Shown piece by piece: positions 2,149-16,068 of a stretch of 18,485 bases of DNA (the first letter of the stretch is position 1; every line of letters begins with the position of its first letter). The notes below the pieces were generated by a model. It searched no databases and was not told the DNA's origin. It saw only the letters and a list, made by a program, of their open reading frames with translations. Made by a program: the position numbers and the translations under genes. The stretch is from a bacterium (GTDB taxonomy: Bacteria; Lindowbacteria; 2-12-FULL-62-27). The stretch lies in NCBI GenBank assembly GCA_016202645.1, contig JACQOF010000035.1, positions 1-18,485 on the forward strand, in the 5' to 3' direction.

Positions 2149-2176
2149 GGAATGTATCCAGCAGAATCCATGCCGG
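2149..2176 (-). promoter_or_regulatory. Candidate sigma54 (-24/-12) promoter of the porin-cytochrome operon
   Basis: On the minus strand, CGGCATG-GATT-CTGCT (2175-2160) keeps the invariant GG (2174-2173) and GC (2162-2161) separated by exactly 10 bases, as sigma54 promoters require. It differs from TGGCACG-N4-TTGCA at only a few flexible positions. The predicted start is near 2149, giving a leader of about 70 nt with the Shine-Dalgarno. The site falls between two tandem palindromes and the gene, with a sigma54 activator encoded next door. Confidence 0.55.
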
Positions 2177-2275: not shown

Positions 2276-2308
2276 TTTCAAATTGAAAAGGCGCGTTTCA
2301 TTTTGAAA
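2276..2308. promoter_or_regulatory. Tandem enhancer (UAS) palindromes TTTCA-N3-TGAAA
   Basis: Two copies of the inverted repeat TTTCA-N3-TGAAA lie at 2276-2288 (spacer AAT) and 2296-2308 (spacer TTT). Their centres are 20 bp apart, so they face the same side of the helix. They sit just past the activator gene's stop and about 133 and 153 bp upstream of the predicted sigma54 transcription start, the usual geometry for NtrC-type activator sites. The likely binder is the Fis-type helix-turn-helix of the adjacent regulator. The inverted repeats are directly seen; the binding partner is inferred. Confidence 0.65.
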
Positions 2309-2315
2309 TGGACGC

Positions 2316-3683
2316 TCATGAGGAGGCGCGCATCTTCCTCCACAGCGTCGCCGGCGAAATGCCGAGCGCTTCGGACGCCTTTGAGCGGTTGCCGCCGAAA
2401 GCTTTGAGGGCCGTCTCGATGGCCTGCCGCTCGATTTCCTCAAGGGATCGAATCGAAGCGGGCCGGGTCAGGGGGTCGGCCTGGCGCAGGGACAAATCCG
2501 CGGCGCGGATCGTATCGCCGTCGGCGAGAATGACGGCCTGCTCGATTACATTTTTGAGTTCCCGGATGTTGCCGGGCCAGGAGTAGGCGCGAAGGGCGTC
2601 GACCGCGGCCGGCTCCAGGCGTTTCGGGGGCCGGGTTGTCTCCCGGGAAAACCGATCCAGAAATTCCCCCGTCAATTTCTGGATGTCTTCGGGGCGCTCC
2701 CTTAGAGGCGGCAGGCGAATCGAAATGACATTCAGCCGGAAAAACAAATCCGGACGGAATTTCCCGGCGCGCGAGAGCGCCTCCAGATCGGCGTTCGTGG
2801 CGGCGAGGATGCGCGTGTCCACCGCCACCGGCCGGTCCGCGCCGAGTCTGCGGAATTCGCTGGATTCGACCGCGCCGAGGAGTTTCGCCTGAAGGCCGAG
2901 CGGCATGTCGCCGATTTCGTCGAGAAAAAGCGTTCCGCCGGTTGCGGCCTGAAACGCGCCGCGCCGTTCCTGGGTCGCGCCGGTGAACGCCCCCCTCGTG
3001 TGGCCGAACAACTCGCTTTCGATCAGATTTTCCGGCAAAGCCGCGCAGTTCACTTTGACGAACGGCCCCTCCGCCCGCGGCGATTTCTCGTGGATGTATC
3101 TGGCGTAGACTTCCTTGCCCGTGCCGCTTTCGCCCTGAAGCAGGACCGTCGCCTTGGTCGGCGCCGCTTTTTCGATCACGCTCTCGATTTCCGTTATCGC
3201 GGCCGACGCGCTCCTGACGGGCCGGCCGATCCAGCGGTCAACGACCTCCCGCCGGAGGCGCCGGGTTTCATCCTGAAGACGCCGGTAGCGGATGGTCCGG
3301 CCGACCGCGGTTCGGATTTGATCCGGGGAAAACGGTTTGATCAAGAAATCGGCTGCGCCGCCGCGCAGGGCCTCGATGGCCACATCGATCGTCGCGAACG
3401 CGGTGATGATGACGACGCCCAGGTCCGGCAGTTTTTGCCGGACTTCGGCCAGAAGCTCCATGCCGTTTTCCGTTCCGAGTTTGACGTCCAGCGCCATCGC
3501 GTCGTATCCCCCAAGCGCGATCAACCGGCGGGCCTCGCCCAACGTTTCAGCCTCATCCACCGTCGCCCCGCTTCTTTACAGGGACTCCTTCACCGCGCGC
3601 CTCAGGTTTTCGTCTTCATCCACCACGAGCACGGCCGCGCGGCGAAGGACAGAGAATCCGTCAAGGGTCCGCGAATCGCTCAT
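2316..3683 (-). CDS. NtrC-family sigma54 response regulator, interrupted by an in-frame TAA
   Basis: The regulator has a receiver domain, a sigma54-interaction AAA+ domain (Walker A GESGTGKE, GAFTGA loop, Walker B GGTLFLDEIGD) and a C-terminal Fis-type helix-turn-helix (GNRSKASEALGISPATLWRKM). The natural start is the ATG at 3683, which overlaps the kinase stop as ATGA. That frame reads AAVLVVDEDENLRRAVKESL, then TAA at 3578-3576, then RSGATVDEAETLGEARR in the same frame. Treating the stop as one residue gives 455 residues and normal spacing from the acidic pocket (Asp22/Glu23) to the phosphorylated Asp66, so nothing else is lost. A GTG at 3560 could restart a 414-residue protein lacking the first beta strand and acidic pocket but keeping the AAA+ and DNA-binding parts. 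It may be a real nonsense mutation, an assembly error, or a reinitiated, phosphorylation-independent activator. Its likely targets are the paired palindromes beyond its 3' end. Confidence 0.85.
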
Positions 3684-5143
3684 GTTGTCGGGGTTGCGGC
3701 GGCCGGCAGAGTCACCAGAAAGGTCGTTCCGGGCGCGGCTTCGGCCTTGCGGCGCGACGTGACGTCGATCGTCCCGCCGTGTTCTTTGACGATCCCATGG
3801 CAGATGGAAAGCCCAAGCCCCGTGCCTCGCGGTTTGGTCGTGAAAAACGGCTCAAAGAGCCTGGTCCGGATTTCTTCAGGGATGCCGGGTCCCGAGTCCG
3901 TGATTTCAATTTCGACCTGTTCGCCCGACCGGCGGACGCCCAAAAATATCCGGCCGCCGCCGGGCTGGGCCTGCGCAGCATTCTGGATCAAATTCACAAA
4001 AACCTGAAGCATCTGGTTTCGATCGAGAACGCACGGCGGGACGGCGGGCGCGAAGTCCTTTTCCACGACGATGCTATTTTTTTCGATCTCATGTTTGCAG
4101 AGCTGCCATGCCGATTCCAGCAATCGGGGCAAGTCGGCCGGTTCGCGTTCGCCGGGGGAGCGTCTGGAGAAGTCGAGGAGATTCTGGATGATTTCCCGGC
4201 ATCGGACGACATCCCGCCGGATATACTCCAGAGATTGTTTCGTCTTCGGAGGAATCTGCGGATCCTCCTCCAGCAATTTCACCTCCATGTAGATGCTTCC
4301 CAGCGGATTTCCCAGCTCATGCGCGACCCCGCCGGCCAAGAGGCCAAGCCCGGCCATCTTGTCCGCCTGAATGAGTTTCGATTCCGTTTCCTTTTCCAGT
4401 TCGGCGCGTGATTTCGCCAGGGCGTCCGCCATCTGATTAAAGCTTTCGCCGAGCGTCTGAAGTTCGTCTCCCGTTCGAATGTCAACCCGCCGAGACAGAT
4501 CGCCGTGGCTCATTTCCCGGGTGACATGCAGCAGCGAGCGCAAGGATCGACGCAGGCGCCAATCGATGAACAGCGCAATCAACCCGCCGCCGAGCAAGGC
4601 CAGAAAAATGATCAGGGCATCCTGCTGAAGAGACTGAAGAAGCCGGTGGCGGATATTTTGATCTCCAACGCCGACGTGAAGGACGCCGAACGGTCGATCA
4701 GCGACCCTGACAGGAACCGAAAAATCCAGGAAGGCACCCCGATACCGGTCGGGATCGTCCAGTTCGCGCAGGTCGTGATGGGCCGGAATTTTTTCCACCC
4801 GGGCCGCCAATCCCGAATCGTCCGATGGCATACCCGCCAAAAATTGGCCGTCGGTCGAGACCACAAACAGGTACCGCACATCTTCGCCGTGTTCCTTTGT
4901 CGCGGCGGCCAATATTTTTCCGAGAACATCCATTCCCTCCGATTCCAGCGACATCGAGCAGGCATGGCCGATGCATCGGGCGGACAGACGGGTGGCCTCC
5001 GTCAGCATCGTCCGGGCGCCGCGATACTCCGCGAGCGTTTTCAGCGCGCTGAAAGCCGTAAACGCCCCGACCTGCCAGACGATCACCAGAAGAATCGCCT
5101 TCGTGCGGAGCGGCAGGGGAAATCGAAAGCCGGCGGGAATCAT
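3680..5143 (-). CDS. Membrane sensor histidine kinase (Cache-like sensor, HAMP, HisKA, HATPase)
   Basis: This is a 487-residue inner-membrane kinase, partner of the adjacent NtrC-type regulator. Transmembrane helix 1 is at about 15-34. A periplasmic Cache/PAS-like sensor follows at about 35-172 (YLFVVSTDGQFLAGMP, FGVLHVGVGDQNIRH). Helix 2 is at about 176-194 and HAMP at about 195-247. The H-box is GGVAHELGNP with His275 as the phosphorylated residue, then come the N-box NLIQNAAQA, G1 DSGPGIP, FEPFFTTK and G2 GTGLGLSICHG. All catalytic motifs are intact. The start ATG at 5143 overlaps the cytochrome stop by one base (TGATG), and its own stop overlaps the regulator start (ATGA), so the genes are translationally coupled. 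Placement after an exported cytochrome suggests it senses a redox or metal signal outside the membrane; the ligand is unknown. Confidence 0.93.
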   Translation of the reverse strand: MIPAGFRFPLPLRTKAILLVIVWQVGAFTAFSALKTLAEYRGARTMLTEATRLSARCIGHACSMSLESEGMDVLGKILAAATKEHGEDVRYLFVVSTDGQFLAGMPSDDSGLAARVEKIPAHHDLRELDDPDRYRGAFLDFSVPVRVADRPFGVLHVGVGDQNIRHRLLQSLQQDALIIFLALLGGGLIALFIDWRLRRSLRSLLHVTREMSHGDLSRRVDIRTGDELQTLGESFNQMADALAKSRAELEKETESKLIQADKMAGLGLLAGGVAHELGNPLGSIYMEVKLLEEDPQIPPKTKQSLEYIRRDVVRCREIIQNLLDFSRRSPGEREPADLPRLLESAWQLCKHEIEKNSIVVEKDFAPAVPPCVLDRNQMLQVFVNLIQNAAQAQPGGGRIFLGVRRSGEQVEIEITDSGPGIPEEIRTRLFEPFFTTKPRGTGLGLSICHGIVKEHGGTIDVTSRRKAEAAPGTTFLVTLPAAATPTT

Positions 5144-6501
5144 CAGTCACCCGCCCTCGGCCCGCCGAACCGCGCAGGCCGGGTTTCCGAATAGGCGGAA
5201 TACGCGGACTCGATTGAATTTCGATGAGCCTGCCGGATCATTCGAAGCGCCTCCGAGCCCAACTCGTCGTCCAGCAACGCCTCAAAAAGGCCCGTGTAAA
5301 AATGATCGGGAAAGACGGTGACGTCGACGCGGACCGCATCCAGGCGGCGAAGATCCGCATCGGGGAGTTTCGACCACGCGAAGCGGTAGGGAAGCGAGAA
5401 CGTATCGCCGGGGGCAATTCGGCTGTCGCGAATCTCACGTCTCTCGTTGCTCGTCAAAATGATTTCCCGGCTGATCACGCCTTCGATCCTGTCGCCATGG
5501 ACGGCGCGGCCTTGCGCATCGATCAATTCGACCGATGCGACGATTCTGGGCGTGACGTAAGTCGGGAAAAAATGGCCCGCGTTTGAATTGACGATTCGAA
5601 GACGCCCGCTGATCGCGTCCTTCTGTTCGTTGGTTTCAAAATCGATCGTCAATGCCAATCGAACCTGGTCGGAAGAATGAACGCCTTTCCACGTGTGCCC
5701 CCGGCCGGGCATGTGGCATTTCTGGCAACTCACTCCCTGTTTGCCCCACGAGCTATGTCTCCATTCTTCATAGGTGTTCTCCAGAGGTTTGCCGTTGATT
5801 GCGTTGTCGGGGCTGAATTGGTGGCAGGCGCGGCAGAATTCGGCGCTTTCAAAATAGCTCGTGTATCGGATCGGATGCGGCGACTTTTGCCGGGGTTTGG
5901 CCGGATCGGGCAGGGGTGGCGGGCCGTAGACGACGCCGTTTCGGACGTGGCAAGCCGCGCAAACAATCGCTTTTTTCGCAAGCGACGTGTCGTACGCCGG
6001 ATTTGGCAGTTCCGTGTCTGAATCGTATATCTGTGTCTGTACTTCCTCCACCGGCCATATTTGATCCGGGGACCGGCCGGGCGCCGGCGGTTTGACGTCA
6101 AACGTGTGGGATTGCTGTCGATCCAGCGGCGCGTGGCAGAGACGGCAGGCGGCGGCGTCTTTTGGCGAAAACCCCATCAGCTGGCCGACGACGCCCGGTC
6201 CCATCGCATGGGCGTGGACGGATTTCGACCACTGATTGTACTGCGCCGTGTGGCATTCCCCGCAGCTTTCCGGAGCAAGATTCAATCGACCGGCCGGATC
6301 GGCGCGGATGGGCAGCTGCCAGTATCGGGTGAGAAAGGCCGCGGTGTCCGAGAAATCTGATTCGGAGACTTCGGCGGCGGTCTCCCGGGCGGGACCCCTT
6401 GGCCAGGCCACGCCCAAAACAAGCAAAAACAAAAAAAAGGCGAAGCCGACGAGGGGTTGTCGACTTCGCCTTCCGCCTCCTATTGAATTCAAATCATCCA
6501 C
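5143..6501 (-). CDS. Membrane-anchored pentaheme c-type cytochrome (cytochrome c554-like)
   Basis: This is a 452-residue multiheme cytochrome with five CxxCH heme sites at about Cys80 (CGECH), Cys119 (CRLCH), Cys181 (CAACH), Cys223 (CRACH) and Cys259 (CQKCH). An N-terminal uncleaved-looking anchor (VGFAFFLFLLVLGVAW) follows RRSR, placing the hemes in the periplasm. After the last heme comes a beta-rich domain of about 180 residues (NAGHFFPTYVTPRIVASVELID), common in c554-type multiheme proteins of respiring bacteria. It probably relays electrons between the inner membrane and outer carriers, here plausibly the cupredoxin and porin-cytochrome. The start is uncertain: GTG at 6501 is the only in-frame choice ahead of the anchor and has no clear Shine-Dalgarno. 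Codons 11-26 coincide with a terminator-like hairpin and T tract. It lies 18 bp behind yceI and overlaps the kinase gene by one base. Confidence 0.88.
   Translation of the reverse strand: MDDLNSIGGGRRSRQPLVGFAFFLFLLVLGVAWPRGPARETAAEVSESDFSDTAAFLTRYWQLPIRADPAGRLNLAPESCGECHTAQYNQWSKSVHAHAMGPGVVGQLMGFSPKDAAACRLCHAPLDRQQSHTFDVKPPAPGRSPDQIWPVEEVQTQIYDSDTELPNPAYDTSLAKKAIVCAACHVRNGVVYGPPPLPDPAKPRQKSPHPIRYTSYFESAEFCRACHQFSPDNAINGKPLENTYEEWRHSSWGKQGVSCQKCHMPGRGHTWKGVHSSDQVRLALTIDFETNEQKDAISGRLRIVNSNAGHFFPTYVTPRIVASVELIDAQGRAVHGDRIEGVISREIILTSNERREIRDSRIAPGDTFSLPYRFAWSKLPDADLRRLDAVRVDVTVFPDHFYTGLFEALLDDELGSEALRMIRQAHRNSIESAYSAYSETRPARFGGPRAGD
6425..6470 (-). terminator. Intrinsic-terminator-like hairpin inside the start of the cytochrome gene
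   Basis: On the minus strand the arms at 6470-6464 (GGCGAAG) and 6445-6439 (CTTCGCC) pair, then after one mismatch CGAC (6462-6459) pairs with GTCG (6450-6447) across an 8-base loop. TTTTTTTT-G-TTTTT follows at once (6438-6425). This is a textbook rho-independent terminator placed 50 bases after the yceI stop, yet it lies within codons 11-26 of the cytochrome, whose Phe/Leu anchor is encoded by the T tract. It probably acts as an attenuator, giving more yceI transcript than cytochrome, kinase and regulator transcript. Confidence 0.65.
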
Positions 6502-6519: not shown

Positions 6520-7263
6520 TCAGCGCTTCTTGCCGCCGCATGGGTTGCACGGATTGCACGGGTTCGACTTTTTGCCGCCGCACGGATTACAGGGGTTGCA
6601 GGGATTCGCCGCCGCGGGTTTGGTTTCAAGACTGTTCTTGGTCGACGCGAGCGCGTCGATGTCGATGTCGACATTTTTGTCAAGTTTCATAAAAAGCATT
6701 TCCGGAACTTCAATTCCATAGTCCGGTAGGCTCAGGCGAAAGCGCGTTTGGATGCGGATCAGATCGCCCGGCATCTTTGCCTTCGTCGCATCCGATTCCT
6801 TTAGATACACCACACTGACCGGCACCCGGACGCTCTTTTCGATGCCGTGCAATTCAAACAACCCGTCGGCGATAAACTCCGCTTTCTCGCCGGGTTTGAG
6901 CGCTTTATTCACTCCCGACGTGATTTTGGTCAGCGTGAACACGGCTTGTGGATGCTTGTCGGTATGGAGGAAATTTTCGCGCATGTGCTGATCACGAAGA
7001 CCGATGCCGGTTTTCATGGATGCCAAGTCCACCCAGAATTTGGCCCGGGTTCCCTCCCCGGCCACGTCCGCCGGATCGACAACGATTTCGCCGCGGATCT
7101 GGCTGGTCAGGCCGATGATGTTCTCCAGCGGCGCGTGGGACTCAAACTTGACGTTGTCCCGGCCGTTGGGATCGTTGACGATGAACATTTCCGCCCGCGC
7201 CGGCCCGGATGTCGCCAATACGCTTGCCAGCGTGACAACCGCAATCTTCAACATTCGTCTCAT
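6520..7263 (-). CDS. Exported YceI-family protein with duplicated NPCNPCNPC tail
   Basis: This 247-residue protein has a Sec signal peptide (MRRMLKIAVVTLASVLATSGPARA) and a YceI-like lipocalin fold at about 28-190 (FESHAPLENIIGLT, MKTGIGLRDQHMRENFLHTDKHPQAVFTLTKI, ADGLFELHGIEKSVRVPV). YceI proteins bind isoprenoid-type lipids or quinones in the periplasm. The C-terminus adds a tail absent from the classical family: NPCNPCNPCGGKK twice, with six cysteines, likely a metal (copper or zinc) or heme-handling site. The ATG at 7263 was chosen because AAGGAG lies 8 nt upstream; the GTG at 7272 is too close to that site. It is the first gene of the run yceI, cytochrome, kinase, regulator, behind a predicted Crp-type promoter. 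Confidence 0.9.
   Translation of the reverse strand: MRRMLKIAVVTLASVLATSGPARAEMFIVNDPNGRDNVKFESHAPLENIIGLTSQIRGEIVVDPADVAGEGTRAKFWVDLASMKTGIGLRDQHMRENFLHTDKHPQAVFTLTKITSGVNKALKPGEKAEFIADGLFELHGIEKSVRVPVSVVYLKESDATKAKMPGDLIRIQTRFRLSLPDYGIEVPEMLFMKLDKNVDIDIDALASTKNSLETKPAAANPCNPCNPCGGKKSNPCNPCNPCGGKKR
6523..6606 (-). repeat. Coding tandem repeat: two NPCNPCNPCGGKK units
   Basis: The last 28 codons of the YceI-like gene are a 14-residue unit (NPC NPC NPC GGKK plus Ser or Arg) repeated twice, and each unit is itself three NPC triplets. The spacing C-x2-C-x2-C suits metal or heme coordination. The repeat is at the protein level, and the DNA copies differ at several wobble positions, so it is not a very recent duplication. 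Confidence 0.8.
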
Positions 7264-7314
7264 GTCTCTCACTCCTTACATGAATTTTGTACGTCCGCCG
7301 GCATCCAGCGTCTC

Positions 7315-12007: not shown

Positions 12008-12394
12008 TCACCATTCGCAACGGACGGGGTATTGCCGGATCAATGGGTCGGGGGTGAGAATGACGCATCCCTCGACGATGGCTTGGCAGACGAGCATCCG
12101 GTCGAAAGGATCTTTATGAAGCCCTGGCAGGCGGGCCAGCCGGAGCACCGCTTCCTCGGAAATCGCCAGCGCCGATAGTCCATACGCGCGGCGGCGGGCC
12201 GGAAGAAAGTCATCCGGCGGTTCGGGAAGGACGAGTTTTTTTGCGCCATGCTTGACCACGATTTCCCACTCGGAAGCGGCGCTCAACCACACTTCATTAC
12301 CGGCGTCTTGAAAACAATCGCGGGCCGCGGCTGACAAATTTTTATCGTCCGAGGCGATCCACAAAAACGCGCAGGTATCGAGCAGAATCTTCAA
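12008..12394 (-). CDS. vapC: VapC-type PIN-domain toxin
   Basis: This is a 128-residue PIN ribonuclease with acidic catalytic residues Asp6 (LLDTCAFLW), Glu42 (SEWEIVVKHG), Asp95 and Asp98 (HKDPFDRMLVCQA) and a late Asp in TPDPLIRQY. Size and motif order match the WIASDD...HKDPFDR subfamily that pairs with Phd/VapB antitoxins. Its start overlaps the antitoxin stop by ATGA, the standard toxin-antitoxin arrangement. The expected activity is cleavage of RNA (tRNA or rRNA) when the antitoxin is degraded; the target is unknown. Confidence 0.92.
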   Translation of the reverse strand: MKILLDTCAFLWIASDDKNLSAAARDCFQDAGNEVWLSAASEWEIVVKHGAKKLVLPEPPDDFLPARRRAYGLSALAISEEAVLRLARLPGLHKDPFDRMLVCQAIVEGCVILTPDPLIRQYPVRCEW

Positions 12395-12636
12395 GATTCC
12401 CCGCCGTTGAAAAGATTGACGAGGTCTGGGGGAAGCGGGTCGTAAAAGGATTTTGGGATCCGGATTTTTCCCTTGTCGAGCCCCACCGGGCGCCGCCGCG
12501 CGGGCGGTTGCGGGACCGGCCGGATCTCCGCGATGGGGACGTTTCGGCGGCAGATGAGAATCGTCTCGCCTTTCTGGACCCGCTTCATGTACCGCGACAG
12601 ATGCGTCTTGGCGGCATGCATATTCAACTTCACCAT
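12391..12636 (-). CDS. vapB: Phd/YefM-type antitoxin
   Basis: This 81-residue antitoxin has an N-terminal Phd/YefM fold (MVKLNMHAAKTHLSRYMKRVQKGETILICRRNVPIAEIRPV) for dimerisation and operator binding. A basic/proline linker and a C-terminal segment (KIRIPKSFYDPLPPDLVNLFNG) probably wrap the toxin. It lies directly upstream of the PIN toxin gene with a 4-base overlap. No Shine-Dalgarno precedes the ATG at 12636; a strong promoter predicts transcription starting on that very A. Confidence 0.9.
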   Translation of the reverse strand: MVKLNMHAAKTHLSRYMKRVQKGETILICRRNVPIAEIRPVPQPPARRRPVGLDKGKIRIPKSFYDPLPPDLVNLFNGGES

Positions 12637-12703: not shown

Positions 12704-14557
12704 CTATCCGTACAGGATGCTCTGCATCTGCTCCGAAAAAATCCAGGCGAGGGTCAGCCATTGAAAGGCGAGGGGGGCGGCCGGGTCTGACGTTCGGCGG
12801 TGGAGCAGGAGGGACGCGGCCTGCTGGTAGAGCACAAACGCGAACCATCTGGCGCGGGAGGGATTGAAGTCCGGATTCAGCGCCGAAAGACCAATATGGA
12901 TCAGGGCGTAGAATGCCAGTGTCACCAGACCGCTGTGGACCGCATGTTTCCAGTCCCGGCCCAAAAAGGGGACGAGGAGAAGTTCCCCGGAACAGAAAAC
13001 GAACGGCAGGATAATGACAGCCGCCGCCAGGAAGGCCAGAGACTGCCGGAAGGCGCCCGCGGCGTTCATCGGGTTGATTTCAGGAAGGAATATCACGAGA
13101 AAATAGAGCACGGCCGACAGTCCGGCCGCCATCCGGGTCCGCTTGACGAAACCCCACAATCTTCCGAGAACTTCAGCGCCCCTGAAGAGGGAAACGAGGA
13201 GGATGATGACCCCCGTCAGGGAAATCATCAAAGGCAGGGCCGACAGCGTATCGACGTGAATCGGCCGTGCGATAAAGACGGCCGGCAAAACGGAGATGAA
13301 GAGGGCGATCCTGCAGGGCGCCGCGCCGGACGCGGGGGCGGCCGGGAACGTCTGAAGCGATCGGCCGAATCCGGACAGAAAAGCAACGAGAAACGGAACA
13401 GCCAGGATGGCCAGAGAAACCGCCAAGACATGGGCGCGCGGCCGATATCTGGGGTGCGGGGATTCCTCGAAGAATCCGTAAATATGGTAGGCGGACGGCG
13501 CGATTTTAGCGTTGAGATTTTTTTCCATCTCCTCGCGGCACCGCATCCCGAGAAACGCATCGAGAAATCCCCGGAGGCCTAGAAGATTGGCCAAGTGGGA
13601 GGTCAGGCCGGACGTCACAATCAGCGCGGATCGGGGGGATGATGAATGAATGAGGCGCGCGTAATGTTTTTGCGACTGGCAGGAAAAAAACCCGAGCAAT
13701 ACCGGGGGAGCGGCGCGGGCTCCCAAGGCGGCGGCCATTTCCGCCGCCAGAGGGCGATGAAGAAAAGTCGTCAAACCCTCCCTGGAAAAAAATCCACGCG
13801 GCCTGAACCCGGGCCCCGTCCCATACCGCGAGTGGCCCAGATACAGGACGACATCATCCCGCCTCAAGGCGTCCAAGTACGCCTCCGTCACCGCCCGTGA
13901 ATGATCTTCCTGCCTCCCGGCCCGCTCCGAGTCATTCTCCCCGATCGAGCTGTTGTAAATGTTCAGGACCACCCGCCCCCTTCGCATACTGAGGGTAACC
14001 GGATGGCCAGGCGCCGGGGGATGATCTTCATTTGTTTCTTTGAAACCGCACGCCCGCGACGGCCCGGCGCAGTCCTTTTTCAAGTGATCCACAAGGGCGG
14101 ACCTGAACGCCCCGTCCATCACGAGATCCGATCCCATCGAATTCATGAATCCGAGGAAAATCGAAAGGGTCAGGGTATCCCGGGCCTGAAGATACCCGTA
14201 CGCGGCGGCGCATTCCGAATCGAATTCCTGAACCGCCTCAGGCCCGGCCGCGCGGCGGTCAAGTTCAAACGCGACGGCATCCCGGATGGATTTGAAGCTG
14301 TCCGGCTCGGCGCCGAGGACGACGGATGGAAGGGACAGCATTGCCGCGGACAGCATGAGAATGCCGGCAAGCTGGTTGAGATACTCGGTGAAGAACCCGT
14401 GCGCGCTTGAACGGGGAGCTTCCTCAGACGCTTGAAACTGCAAACTCCGATTCGGAAAATGTGTCCAAAAATTGCTGAATGCTAACAGATCGCGGTCCCA
14501 CCCGGCCGTTTGAAGGGCGGGGGTGATCAGGGTTCTACAGGTGTCGGCTTCGTTCAT
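12704..14557 (-). CDS. Polytopic membrane protein with periplasmic caspase-like His/Cys motifs; N-terminus carries an HsdR remnant
   Basis: This 617-codon frame has three parts. Residues 1-23 match the start of type I restriction HsdR subunits, and residues 24-60 are unrecognised. From ATG68 (14356) a signal peptide (MLSAAMLSLPSVVLGAEPD) begins what is probably the real gene. Residues about 85-345 form a soluble domain with VVLYLGHSRYGTGPGF (His242) and VLLGFFSCQSQKHY (Cys293). The spacing and the hydrophobic strand before each match the His-Cys dyad of caspase/C25-like peptidases; this is a motif reading, not a proven assignment. The C-terminal half (about 378-610) has seven or eight transmembrane helices. 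No exact family is recognised. The frame overlaps the AlbA_2 gene stop by ATGA, but translation from 14557 would bury the signal peptide, so the start at 14356 is preferred biologically. Confidence 0.7.
   Translation of the reverse strand: MNEADTCRTLITPALQTAGWDRDLLAFSNFWTHFPNRSLQFQASEEAPRSSAHGFFTEYLNQLAGILMLSAAMLSLPSVVLGAEPDSFKSIRDAVAFELDRRAAGPEAVQEFDSECAAAYGYLQARDTLTLSIFLGFMNSMGSDLVMDGAFRSALVDHLKKDCAGPSRACGFKETNEDHPPAPGHPVTLSMRRGRVVLNIYNSSIGENDSERAGRQEDHSRAVTEAYLDALRRDDVVLYLGHSRYGTGPGFRPRGFFSREGLTTFLHRPLAAEMAAALGARAAPPVLLGFFSCQSQKHYARLIHSSSPRSALIVTSGLTSHLANLLGLRGFLDAFLGMRCREEMEKNLNAKIAPSAYHIYGFFEESPHPRYRPRAHVLAVSLAILAVPFLVAFLSGFGRSLQTFPAAPASGAAPCRIALFISVLPAVFIARPIHVDTLSALPLMISLTGVIILLVSLFRGAEVLGRLWGFVKRTRMAAGLSAVLYFLVIFLPEINPMNAAGAFRQSLAFLAAAVIILPFVFCSGELLLVPFLGRDWKHAVHSGLVTLAFYALIHIGLSALNPDFNPSRARWFAFVLYQQAASLLLHRRTSDPAAPLAFQWLTLAWIFSEQMQSILYG
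14489..14557 (-). pseudogene. hsdR: Remnant of type I restriction endonuclease subunit R (first ~23 codons)
   Basis: The codons MNEADTCRTLITPALQTAGW are typical of the N-terminus of EcoEI-type HsdR proteins. The similarity stops after about residue 23 and the frame continues into unrelated sequence. The ATG overlaps the stop of the AlbA_2-type gene by ATGA, as expected if an intact hsdR once followed it. No hsdM or hsdS is present in the window. Recognition is from memory of the family. Confidence 0.55.
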
Positions 14558-16068
14558 TGTTTGTCAGCCTTTGCCGTTCGAGATCGTCGCTCGGCCTGTT
14601 TCAGCGCCTTTATTCCGGCGGAAGTGGAACGGTATTTCTGCAGGCGGCTTCTCGGTTTTGTCGGAATAGTCATGGCAAGCCAACCCTTGTCGAGCATGGG
14701 CTTGAGATAATTATTCATGAAGTTTTCACGGTGCTTCAGATGCAGCAAATTCTGTATCTCGCCAGCCTTGCGCGGGGACATGCAGAATCGCAGAACTTGT
14801 CCGGCGACTTGTCCGGTGACTTGTCCGGTGACTTGTCCGGTGACTTGCGCGGTGACTTGCGCGGTATCACGCGGGGCGACAGACCCTGTCGGCTTTTTTT
14901 CCGGCCGGCGAAACCTCACGATAAAGGATGATCCCGTCTCCTCGAATTCCGGGGCAGGGATGCCGGCTTCACGGCAAAGAGAGATGATGTTTTGCGTTCC
15001 CTGCCCGAACTTCTCGATGACGCCGGCCAAAAAGAAGGCGGACGCGATCAGTTTATTACGGGGCTTGGATTCATGATTTCGTTTCAGGTCTCGGATCGTG
15101 ATGCCGTGTGGAAGCAGACCGGGGCTCCAAACCTCCAGAGATTCGTCAAAGATTCGCACCTGGACATTTGACGTTGACGCATAATCGCGGTGACAGATCG
15201 CATTGACAACGGCCTCCCGCACGGCGTCCAGCGGGTATTGCCAGACATCCGTCCGGCGCGGGCCGCCGTCCCTCACCTCGACGGCCATTCGAATGTTGCG
15301 CTGAACAAACCGGAGCACTTCATCCGCCTGATTCACCACGGTTCCGGCGATCACCTTTAAATCGATGGGTCTCTCGGACGAATCGTATTTGAACCTGGCG
15401 CATCGGATTTCGGACTGAATCAGATGGCGCTGAGGATATGAACCGAAGAGAAGTATTGCGGCCACGGTCGGCTTGCCGCTTGAAACAAGTTTCAAAAGCC
15501 GGAGTACCTTGATCGGGGCGTCCCGGCCGCTCCACTCGACTTTCCGCTCCCGGCGGGCAGTTGCGATAAATGATCGGACGTTCTTCATGGAAATGTCATC
15601 CATGCGGGCGTCGTCGAAAACCGTCTCGTCCCATGTTTGTCCTCGCGATGCCATGTAGATCGCGGCCGACTGATCCGGCGAAAGGCGCTGGTTCGTGCGG
15701 CCAGAGCGTTTGAAGGGCCGGCCGAAGGCGTGAATGGGTTTAGATCTCGCCTCCTCGACATCGATGACGAGAATGTCCTTCTTCTGATAGGCCGCCATGC
15801 GGACGGAGGGCACGATTCTGGGGTCCGTGTTCTGGACGATCCTGTTGGTGATGTCCTCCATGGACTTGCCGCCATGCTGAACGCCGCGGATTTCGCCTTT
15901 CCGATCCACGCCCACGAAAATCCGGCCGCCGCGGTGCGTGGCGAAGGCCGCTACAGTCTCGACGATTTCTTTCCATTCGCCGAGAGATTCTTTCCACTCC
16001 GCCGTTTCCGATTCGGGAGGGATGGCCGGTCGTCGGCCGGCGGGTTTCTGTTTGGTTTGCATGCCCAT
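14554..16068 (-). CDS. AlbA_2/Schlafen-type ATP-binding protein (RecG-like C-terminal family)
   Basis: This 504-residue protein has an AlbA_2 (Schlafen-like) domain at about 18-135 (ESLGEWKEIVETVAAFAT, GRIFVGVDRKGEIRGV, FYRRSGRTN-like PFKRSGRTNQ). A GHKL-type ATPase module follows, annotated in relatives as HATPase_c_4 (PLDAVREAVVNAICHRDY, LEVWSPGLLPHGI, NKLIASAFFLAGVIEKFGQG). Next comes a run of AQVTGQVTGQ repeats, then a winged-helix-like tail (MSPRKAGEIQNLLHLKHRENFMNNYLKPMLDKGWL). Such proteins are often encoded within type I restriction loci and may act as regulators. Here the next frame starts with an HsdR remnant, supporting that origin. It follows the YdjM-like gene by 16 bases. The ATG at 16068 has weak GGAT upstream; ATG at 16062 is an alternative. 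Confidence 0.85.
   Translation of the reverse strand: MGMQTKQKPAGRRPAIPPESETAEWKESLGEWKEIVETVAAFATHRGGRIFVGVDRKGEIRGVQHGGKSMEDITNRIVQNTDPRIVPSVRMAAYQKKDILVIDVEEARSKPIHAFGRPFKRSGRTNQRLSPDQSAAIYMASRGQTWDETVFDDARMDDISMKNVRSFIATARRERKVEWSGRDAPIKVLRLLKLVSSGKPTVAAILLFGSYPQRHLIQSEIRCARFKYDSSERPIDLKVIAGTVVNQADEVLRFVQRNIRMAVEVRDGGPRRTDVWQYPLDAVREAVVNAICHRDYASTSNVQVRIFDESLEVWSPGLLPHGITIRDLKRNHESKPRNKLIASAFFLAGVIEKFGQGTQNIISLCREAGIPAPEFEETGSSFIVRFRRPEKKPTGSVAPRDTAQVTAQVTGQVTGQVTGQVAGQVLRFCMSPRKAGEIQNLLHLKHRENFMNNYLKPMLDKGWLAMTIPTKPRSRLQKYRSTSAGIKALKQAERRSRTAKADKQ
14795..14866. repeat. 12-bp in-frame tandem repeat (six units)
   Basis: Six head-to-tail units of ACTTGTCCGGTG (two with ACTTGCGCGGT variants, the last imperfect) lie inside the AlbA_2-type gene and encode the V-T-G-Q linker on the minus strand. 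The unit is a multiple of three, so copy-number slippage changes linker length without shifting the frame. There are no spacers, so it is not a CRISPR. Confidence 0.85.

Follow-up and report, generated by a model that had tools for sequence, protein, structure and literature searches.

An in-frame stop codon in the receiver domain of an NtrC-type sigma54 activator adjoining a Cyc2-like gene

The closest solved relative of the regulator described here is NtrC1 of Aquifex aeolicus (PDB 1ny5, 4l4u, 1zy2), which displays the same order of a receiver, an AAA+ domain and a Fis-type helix-turn-helix (HTH). The portion of our regulator that lies beyond its stop codon matches 4l4u with an E-value of 1.9e-96, and its receiver fold matches 1zy2 with a TM score of 0.85. 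Both NtrC1 and DctD are held in check by their receivers, which repress the AAA+ domain; NtrC, by contrast, is subject to positive regulation (PMC2941729). Another sigma54 activator, FlbD of Caulobacter, has a receiver without the key residues and works without a kinase of its own, being regulated instead by FliX (PMC3096577). As for the probable target, Cyc2 proteins are recognized by the motif AXPXFAR[Q/K][T/Y] upstream of CXXCH, by PXL downstream of it and by a length of at least 365 residues (PMC8406198). In the rus operon of Acidithiobacillus ferrooxidans, of which cyc2 is the first gene, the promoters are sigma70-dependent (PMC5506826), and in the literature that we searched cyc2 and sigma54 are rarely mentioned together.

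The window analysed here is one entire contig of 18,485 nucleotides, and encodes, on the minus strand, a sensor histidine kinase, an NtrC-type regulator and a Cyc2-like protein. In contrast to Aquifex NtrC1, the regulator has a TAA that cuts helix alpha1 of the receiver, and a Glu in place of the second Asp of the acidic pocket. It likewise differs from FlbD, which is uninterrupted, and its cognate kinase is both adjacent and intact.

The regulator frame and its stop codon

The regulator frame opens with an ATG (3683-3681, minus strand) that overlaps the stop codon of the kinase gene in the arrangement ATGA, runs for 35 codons to a TAA at codon 36 (3578-3576), and then goes on in the same frame to a TGA at 2318-2316 (Table 1). 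Beyond the TAA there is no further stop, and the rest of the receiver, the AAA+ sigma54-activator domain and the Fis-type HTH follow one another. The initial annotation had described this coupling, the TAA and the resumption in frame as far as Asp66, and both the translation and a PF00072 match extending across the stop bear it out. When the TAA was read as Glu and the first 140 codons were taken, residues 18-127 aligned to positions 1-110 of the PF00072 profile with 87.5 bits, and Asp66, Thr94 and Lys116 were found at their normal spacing in this alignment. Of the receiver residues that typify the family these three are present, whereas the second acid is Glu23 in place of Asp, and the domain is complete only with the TAA read through. 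The AAA+ domain (PF00158, 224.5 bits), with both GESGTGKE as the Walker A motif and GAFTGA, and the C-terminal HTH (PF02954, 58.9 bits) are those expected of an NtrC-type regulator. Given that both other reading frames are closed over the stretch containing the stop, a frameshift in place of a nonsense codon could be rejected.

Modelled with AlphaFold (pLDDT 92), the read-through receiver has beta1 at residues 17-21, alpha1 at 25-37 and beta2 at 41-45, and codon 36 thus falls in the last turn of alpha1. GAA, CAA and AAA had been proposed as the codons from which the TAA arose; these are indeed a single step away, but so are TCA, TTA, TAC and TAT, and the two counterparts in the family member G002 (see below) have a Ser at this position. 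The further claim that the frame begins as a normal receiver holds insofar as the PF00072 match is complete on readthrough, but not at codon 23 (3615-3617, minus strand), 39 bases upstream of the TAA, which specifies Glu at a metal-binding acid position where 121 of 121 distinct homologues have Asp. This substitution could reduce phosphorylation, and it could also be a sign of earlier relaxed selection on the receiver; alternatively, the sequence may contain another wrong base here, about 40 bases from the stop.

Table 1. Features of the kinase, regulator and Cyc2-like gene region, in window coordinates
Feature	Positions	Strand	Remarks
Cyc2-like protein, probable target; signal peptide, AIPAFARKY-GTS-CSTCH-IAP-PTL, 446 aa	738..2078	-	GCAAAGGGGGT before start
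Sigma54-like promoter CCGGCATGGATTCTGCT, of the form GG-N10-GC, departing from the consensus at two positions	2160..2176	-	
Candidate enhancer 2, dyad TTTCAATTTGAAA, spaced 20 bp from candidate enhancer 1	2276..2288	-	
Candidate enhancer (operator) 1, dyad TTTCAAAATGAAA, in tandem with candidate enhancer 2	2296..2308	-	
Regulator remainder: receiver from beta2 (Asp66, Thr94, Lys116), AAA+ (Walker A, GAFTGA), Fis-type HTH, TGA	2316..3575	-	
Codon 63 (ATG), a further possible internal start, preceded by GGGGGA, duplex -8.4 kcal/mol	3495..3497	-	prediction
GTG, possible restart codon, 15 nt past the TAA	3558..3560	-	prediction
Codon 36, TAA in frame, within the final turn of alpha1	3576..3578	-	
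Pre-stop segment, codons 1-35 (receiver beta1 and alpha1; Asp22, unusual Glu23)	3579..3683	-	
Sensor histidine kinase, HAMP, HisKA, HATPase_c, intact, 487 aa	3681..5143	-	open frame, no stop; TGA overlaps regulator ATG

The stop codon among homologues and within the genome

A stop at codon 36 was not encountered in any of 134 homologous hits drawn from two collections. Glu is the commonest residue at this position (43 hits), followed by Arg, Ser and Lys, and the occurrence of all these residues marks it as a variable and tolerant position. The possibility, raised at the outset, of a short independent frame at this place in all close relatives is not borne out, as the frame of the relatives is continuous and no conserved short upstream frame was seen among them.

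The genome itself is a fragmented MAG-like assembly of 2.9 Mb (146 contigs, 82% complete). Among its 154 matches to receiver, AAA+, HATPase and ABC domains the regulator is the sole interrupted case; it is likewise the only one of the 69 receivers with a stop, and none was detected in 85 other domain matches (13 sigma54-activator, 41 HATPase and 31 ABC) or in the neighbouring genes on the contig. The absence of the stop from all 134 homologous hits, taken with this single interruption in the genome, argues that TAA is not reassigned. Recoding or readthrough, with an amino acid inserted at the TAA, would explain why the frame goes on with perfect domain spacing, but we consider it very improbable: apart from the count of interrupted matches, ARAGORN recovered no TTA anticodon, and thus no ochre suppressor, among the 30 tRNA loci of this incomplete MAG, and an RF-1-family release factor is present in the genome. 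Furthermore, among stop codons TAA normally terminates translation most efficiently. Going by these sequence comparisons, the stop is a change private to this sequence, and neither a family feature nor a case of recoding.

Isolated nonsense alleles do arise in such assemblies: in a homologue from a Zixiibacteriota MAG (L061), an NtrC-family gene that is otherwise intact, the frame is likewise broken by one stop, inside GAFTGA and at the codon aligned to residue 235 of our regulator. The two differ in the position of the stop, and in the present case a restart could still yield the DNA-binding and AAA+ parts. Stops had also been flagged in the regulators of three further genomes, but that of G055 precedes the receiver and the alignments of those of G001 and G025 show none in the domains.

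As the searched genomes contain no close orthologue (the best is at about 45% identity), composition and conserved motifs were the sole guides to how old the lesion is. The GC content by codon position is 0.71/0.40/0.77 before the stop and 0.69/0.45/0.76 after it, with a GC3 of 77% before and of 76% and 80% after, and the AAA+ domain deviates at just 1 of 61 strongly conserved columns, which is below the average of the homologues. This coding-like composition on both sides, together with the intact appearance of the kinase, the activator motifs, the tandem operator and the sigma54-like promoter, suggests that the lesion is either recent or a consensus error. We consider it probable that it is a recent, lineage-specific nonsense mutation in an otherwise intact NtrC-type sigma54 activator, though Glu23 fits less readily with this, since the receiver could already have been under relaxed selection. 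An artefact of the consensus, whereby the population has a sense codon and the contig shows at 3576-3578 a base that is incorrect or belongs to a minority, strikes us as rather unlikely. It would be in keeping with the fragmented nature of the assembly, of which the window is one whole contig, with the proximity of two anomalies, Glu23 and the stop, and with the intactness of everything around the stop. Against it, no stops were seen in the other 153 domain matches or the neighbouring genes, which indicates that the assembly is not generally error-rich. Thus, of the three explanations offered in the initial annotation, mutation and consensus error both stand, while recoding is disfavoured by the genome counts, the release factor, the tRNA complement and the homologues.

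The intact kinase and the product of a possible restart

In the normal pathway, the kinase would phosphorylate Asp66 of the regulator, and the activated AAA+ ring, bound at the tandem TTTCAAWWTGAAA dyads, would open the sigma54-RNA polymerase at about 2160-2176 and thereby turn on the Cyc2-like gene. With the stop in place, ribosomes passed on from the kinase at the ATGA would produce a 35-residue peptide, and a minority of them would probably restart at GTG 3560 or ATG 3497. The predicted anti-SD duplex of GTG 3560, at -7.5 kcal/mol, is equalled or bettered at only about 5% of background positions, a moderate Shine-Dalgarno. In E. coli, coupling at +14 nt is lowered by 40-80% but still persists (PMC10666635), and a restart at GTG 3560 is physically plausible.

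The product from either start would keep Asp66, the AAA+ domain and the HTH, but would be devoid of beta1, alpha1 and the metal-binding acids, because of which it should escape phosphorylation by its kinase. The original proposal that a protein initiated at the GTG is without the acidic pocket proved right, as it comprises positions 26-110 of the receiver profile (PF00072, 58.5 bits) followed by the AAA+ domain and the HTH. Given that both receiver-repressed activators (NtrC1, DctD) and positively regulated ones (NtrC) exist, the broken receiver might either release or abolish activity, and an inactive and a constitutively active product are both compatible with the sequence. By analogy with NtrC1, the closest solved relative, whose receiver represses the AAA+ domain, partial kinase-independent activity of the restart product is possible.

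We also considered whether selection maintains a split gene here, in which the TAA followed by a restart at GTG 3560 gives a kinase-independent sigma54 activator that would hold the Cyc2-like gene on (or off). The Shine-Dalgarno of the GTG and its workable 15-nt distance from the stop, the replacement of an otherwise invariant Asp by Glu23 and the receiver-repressed type of NtrC1 are all consistent with such an arrangement, but the retention of Asp66, Thr94 and Lys116 and of the coding composition ahead of the stop, the intact kinase and the absence of the split from every relative render it improbable. Its more specific version, in which the split locks on the Cyc2-like iron-oxidation gene as a one-codon rewiring of an extracellular electron-transfer switch, appears slightly more improbable still. 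The rewiring of the cascade that had been suggested initially is therefore possible, but no conserved split form supports it, and a recent nonsense mutation remains our preferred reading.

The Cyc2-like neighbour and its control region

The product of 738-2078 fits both the motif and the length criteria for Cyc2, with AIPAFARKY, CSTCH and PTL in a protein of 446 aa. Its sequence features suggest a fused cytochrome-porin resembling the iron-oxidising Cyc2, with a putative role in Fe(II) oxidation. It gave no Pfam or NCBIfam hit, and its AlphaFold model, made from only 3 sequences, has a pLDDT of 30 and is unusable for the porin barrel. The tandem dyads sit between the regulator and this gene, and the only exact match to the dyad outside the pair in the 2.9 Mb genome lies within a large open frame. 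Sigma54-like sites were found 6 times in the window as against 3.7 expected, and the site at 2160-2176 is weak when taken alone; comparable sites are, however, seen at the equivalent place in both clusters of G002 that are described below. The genome has one sigma54 gene, and no Rfam element turned up around the GCAAAGGGGGT leader, which is conserved.

The order of kinase, sigma54 regulator and Cyc2-like gene recurs twice in G002 (L227:7000-10098; L228:6980-9758). Each of these clusters has a GG-N10-GC promoter, a dyad about 110-130 bp upstream and a GCAAAGGGGGT identical to that of the window before the Cyc2-like start, although the dyads themselves differ in sequence from those of the window, being of the GTGTCC..GGACAC type. 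Their regulators are about 35% identical to ours, but are uninterrupted and have Asp at position 23. The shared gene order, promoter, dyad and GCAAAGGGGGT support the Cyc2-like neighbour as the target, which the regulator switch probably controls, and the regulators without a stop indicate that the uninterrupted regulator is the normal form.

Directly upstream of the kinase, 5143-6501 (minus strand) encodes a multihaem cytochrome, for which Pfam gave an MtrC/MtrF-like match and for which an ExtKL-like match fell below the cutoff; this gene may be part of the same electron-transfer locus. Elsewhere on the minus strand of the window, a YceI-domain protein (6520-7272) ends in repeated Cys-rich NPCNPCGGKK units, 12008-12636 contains an overlapping pair whose translations, judged by eye, resemble a VapB-like antitoxin and a PIN-domain toxin, and towards the C terminus of the protein encoded at 14554-16068 there is a QVTAQVTGQVTGQVTGQVAGQV repeat.

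Taken by itself, the stop is a nonsense allele of an ordinary sort or a consensus error; it would gain importance only if it proved to be fixed and the regulator to be expressed by restart, as a two-component switch would then have been uncoupled from its kinase. Of more lasting interest than the stop is the Cyc2-like circuit, in which the recurrent order of kinase, sigma54 activator and Cyc2-like gene, along with the sigma54-like promoter and the dyads, suggests control of a putative iron-oxidation gene.
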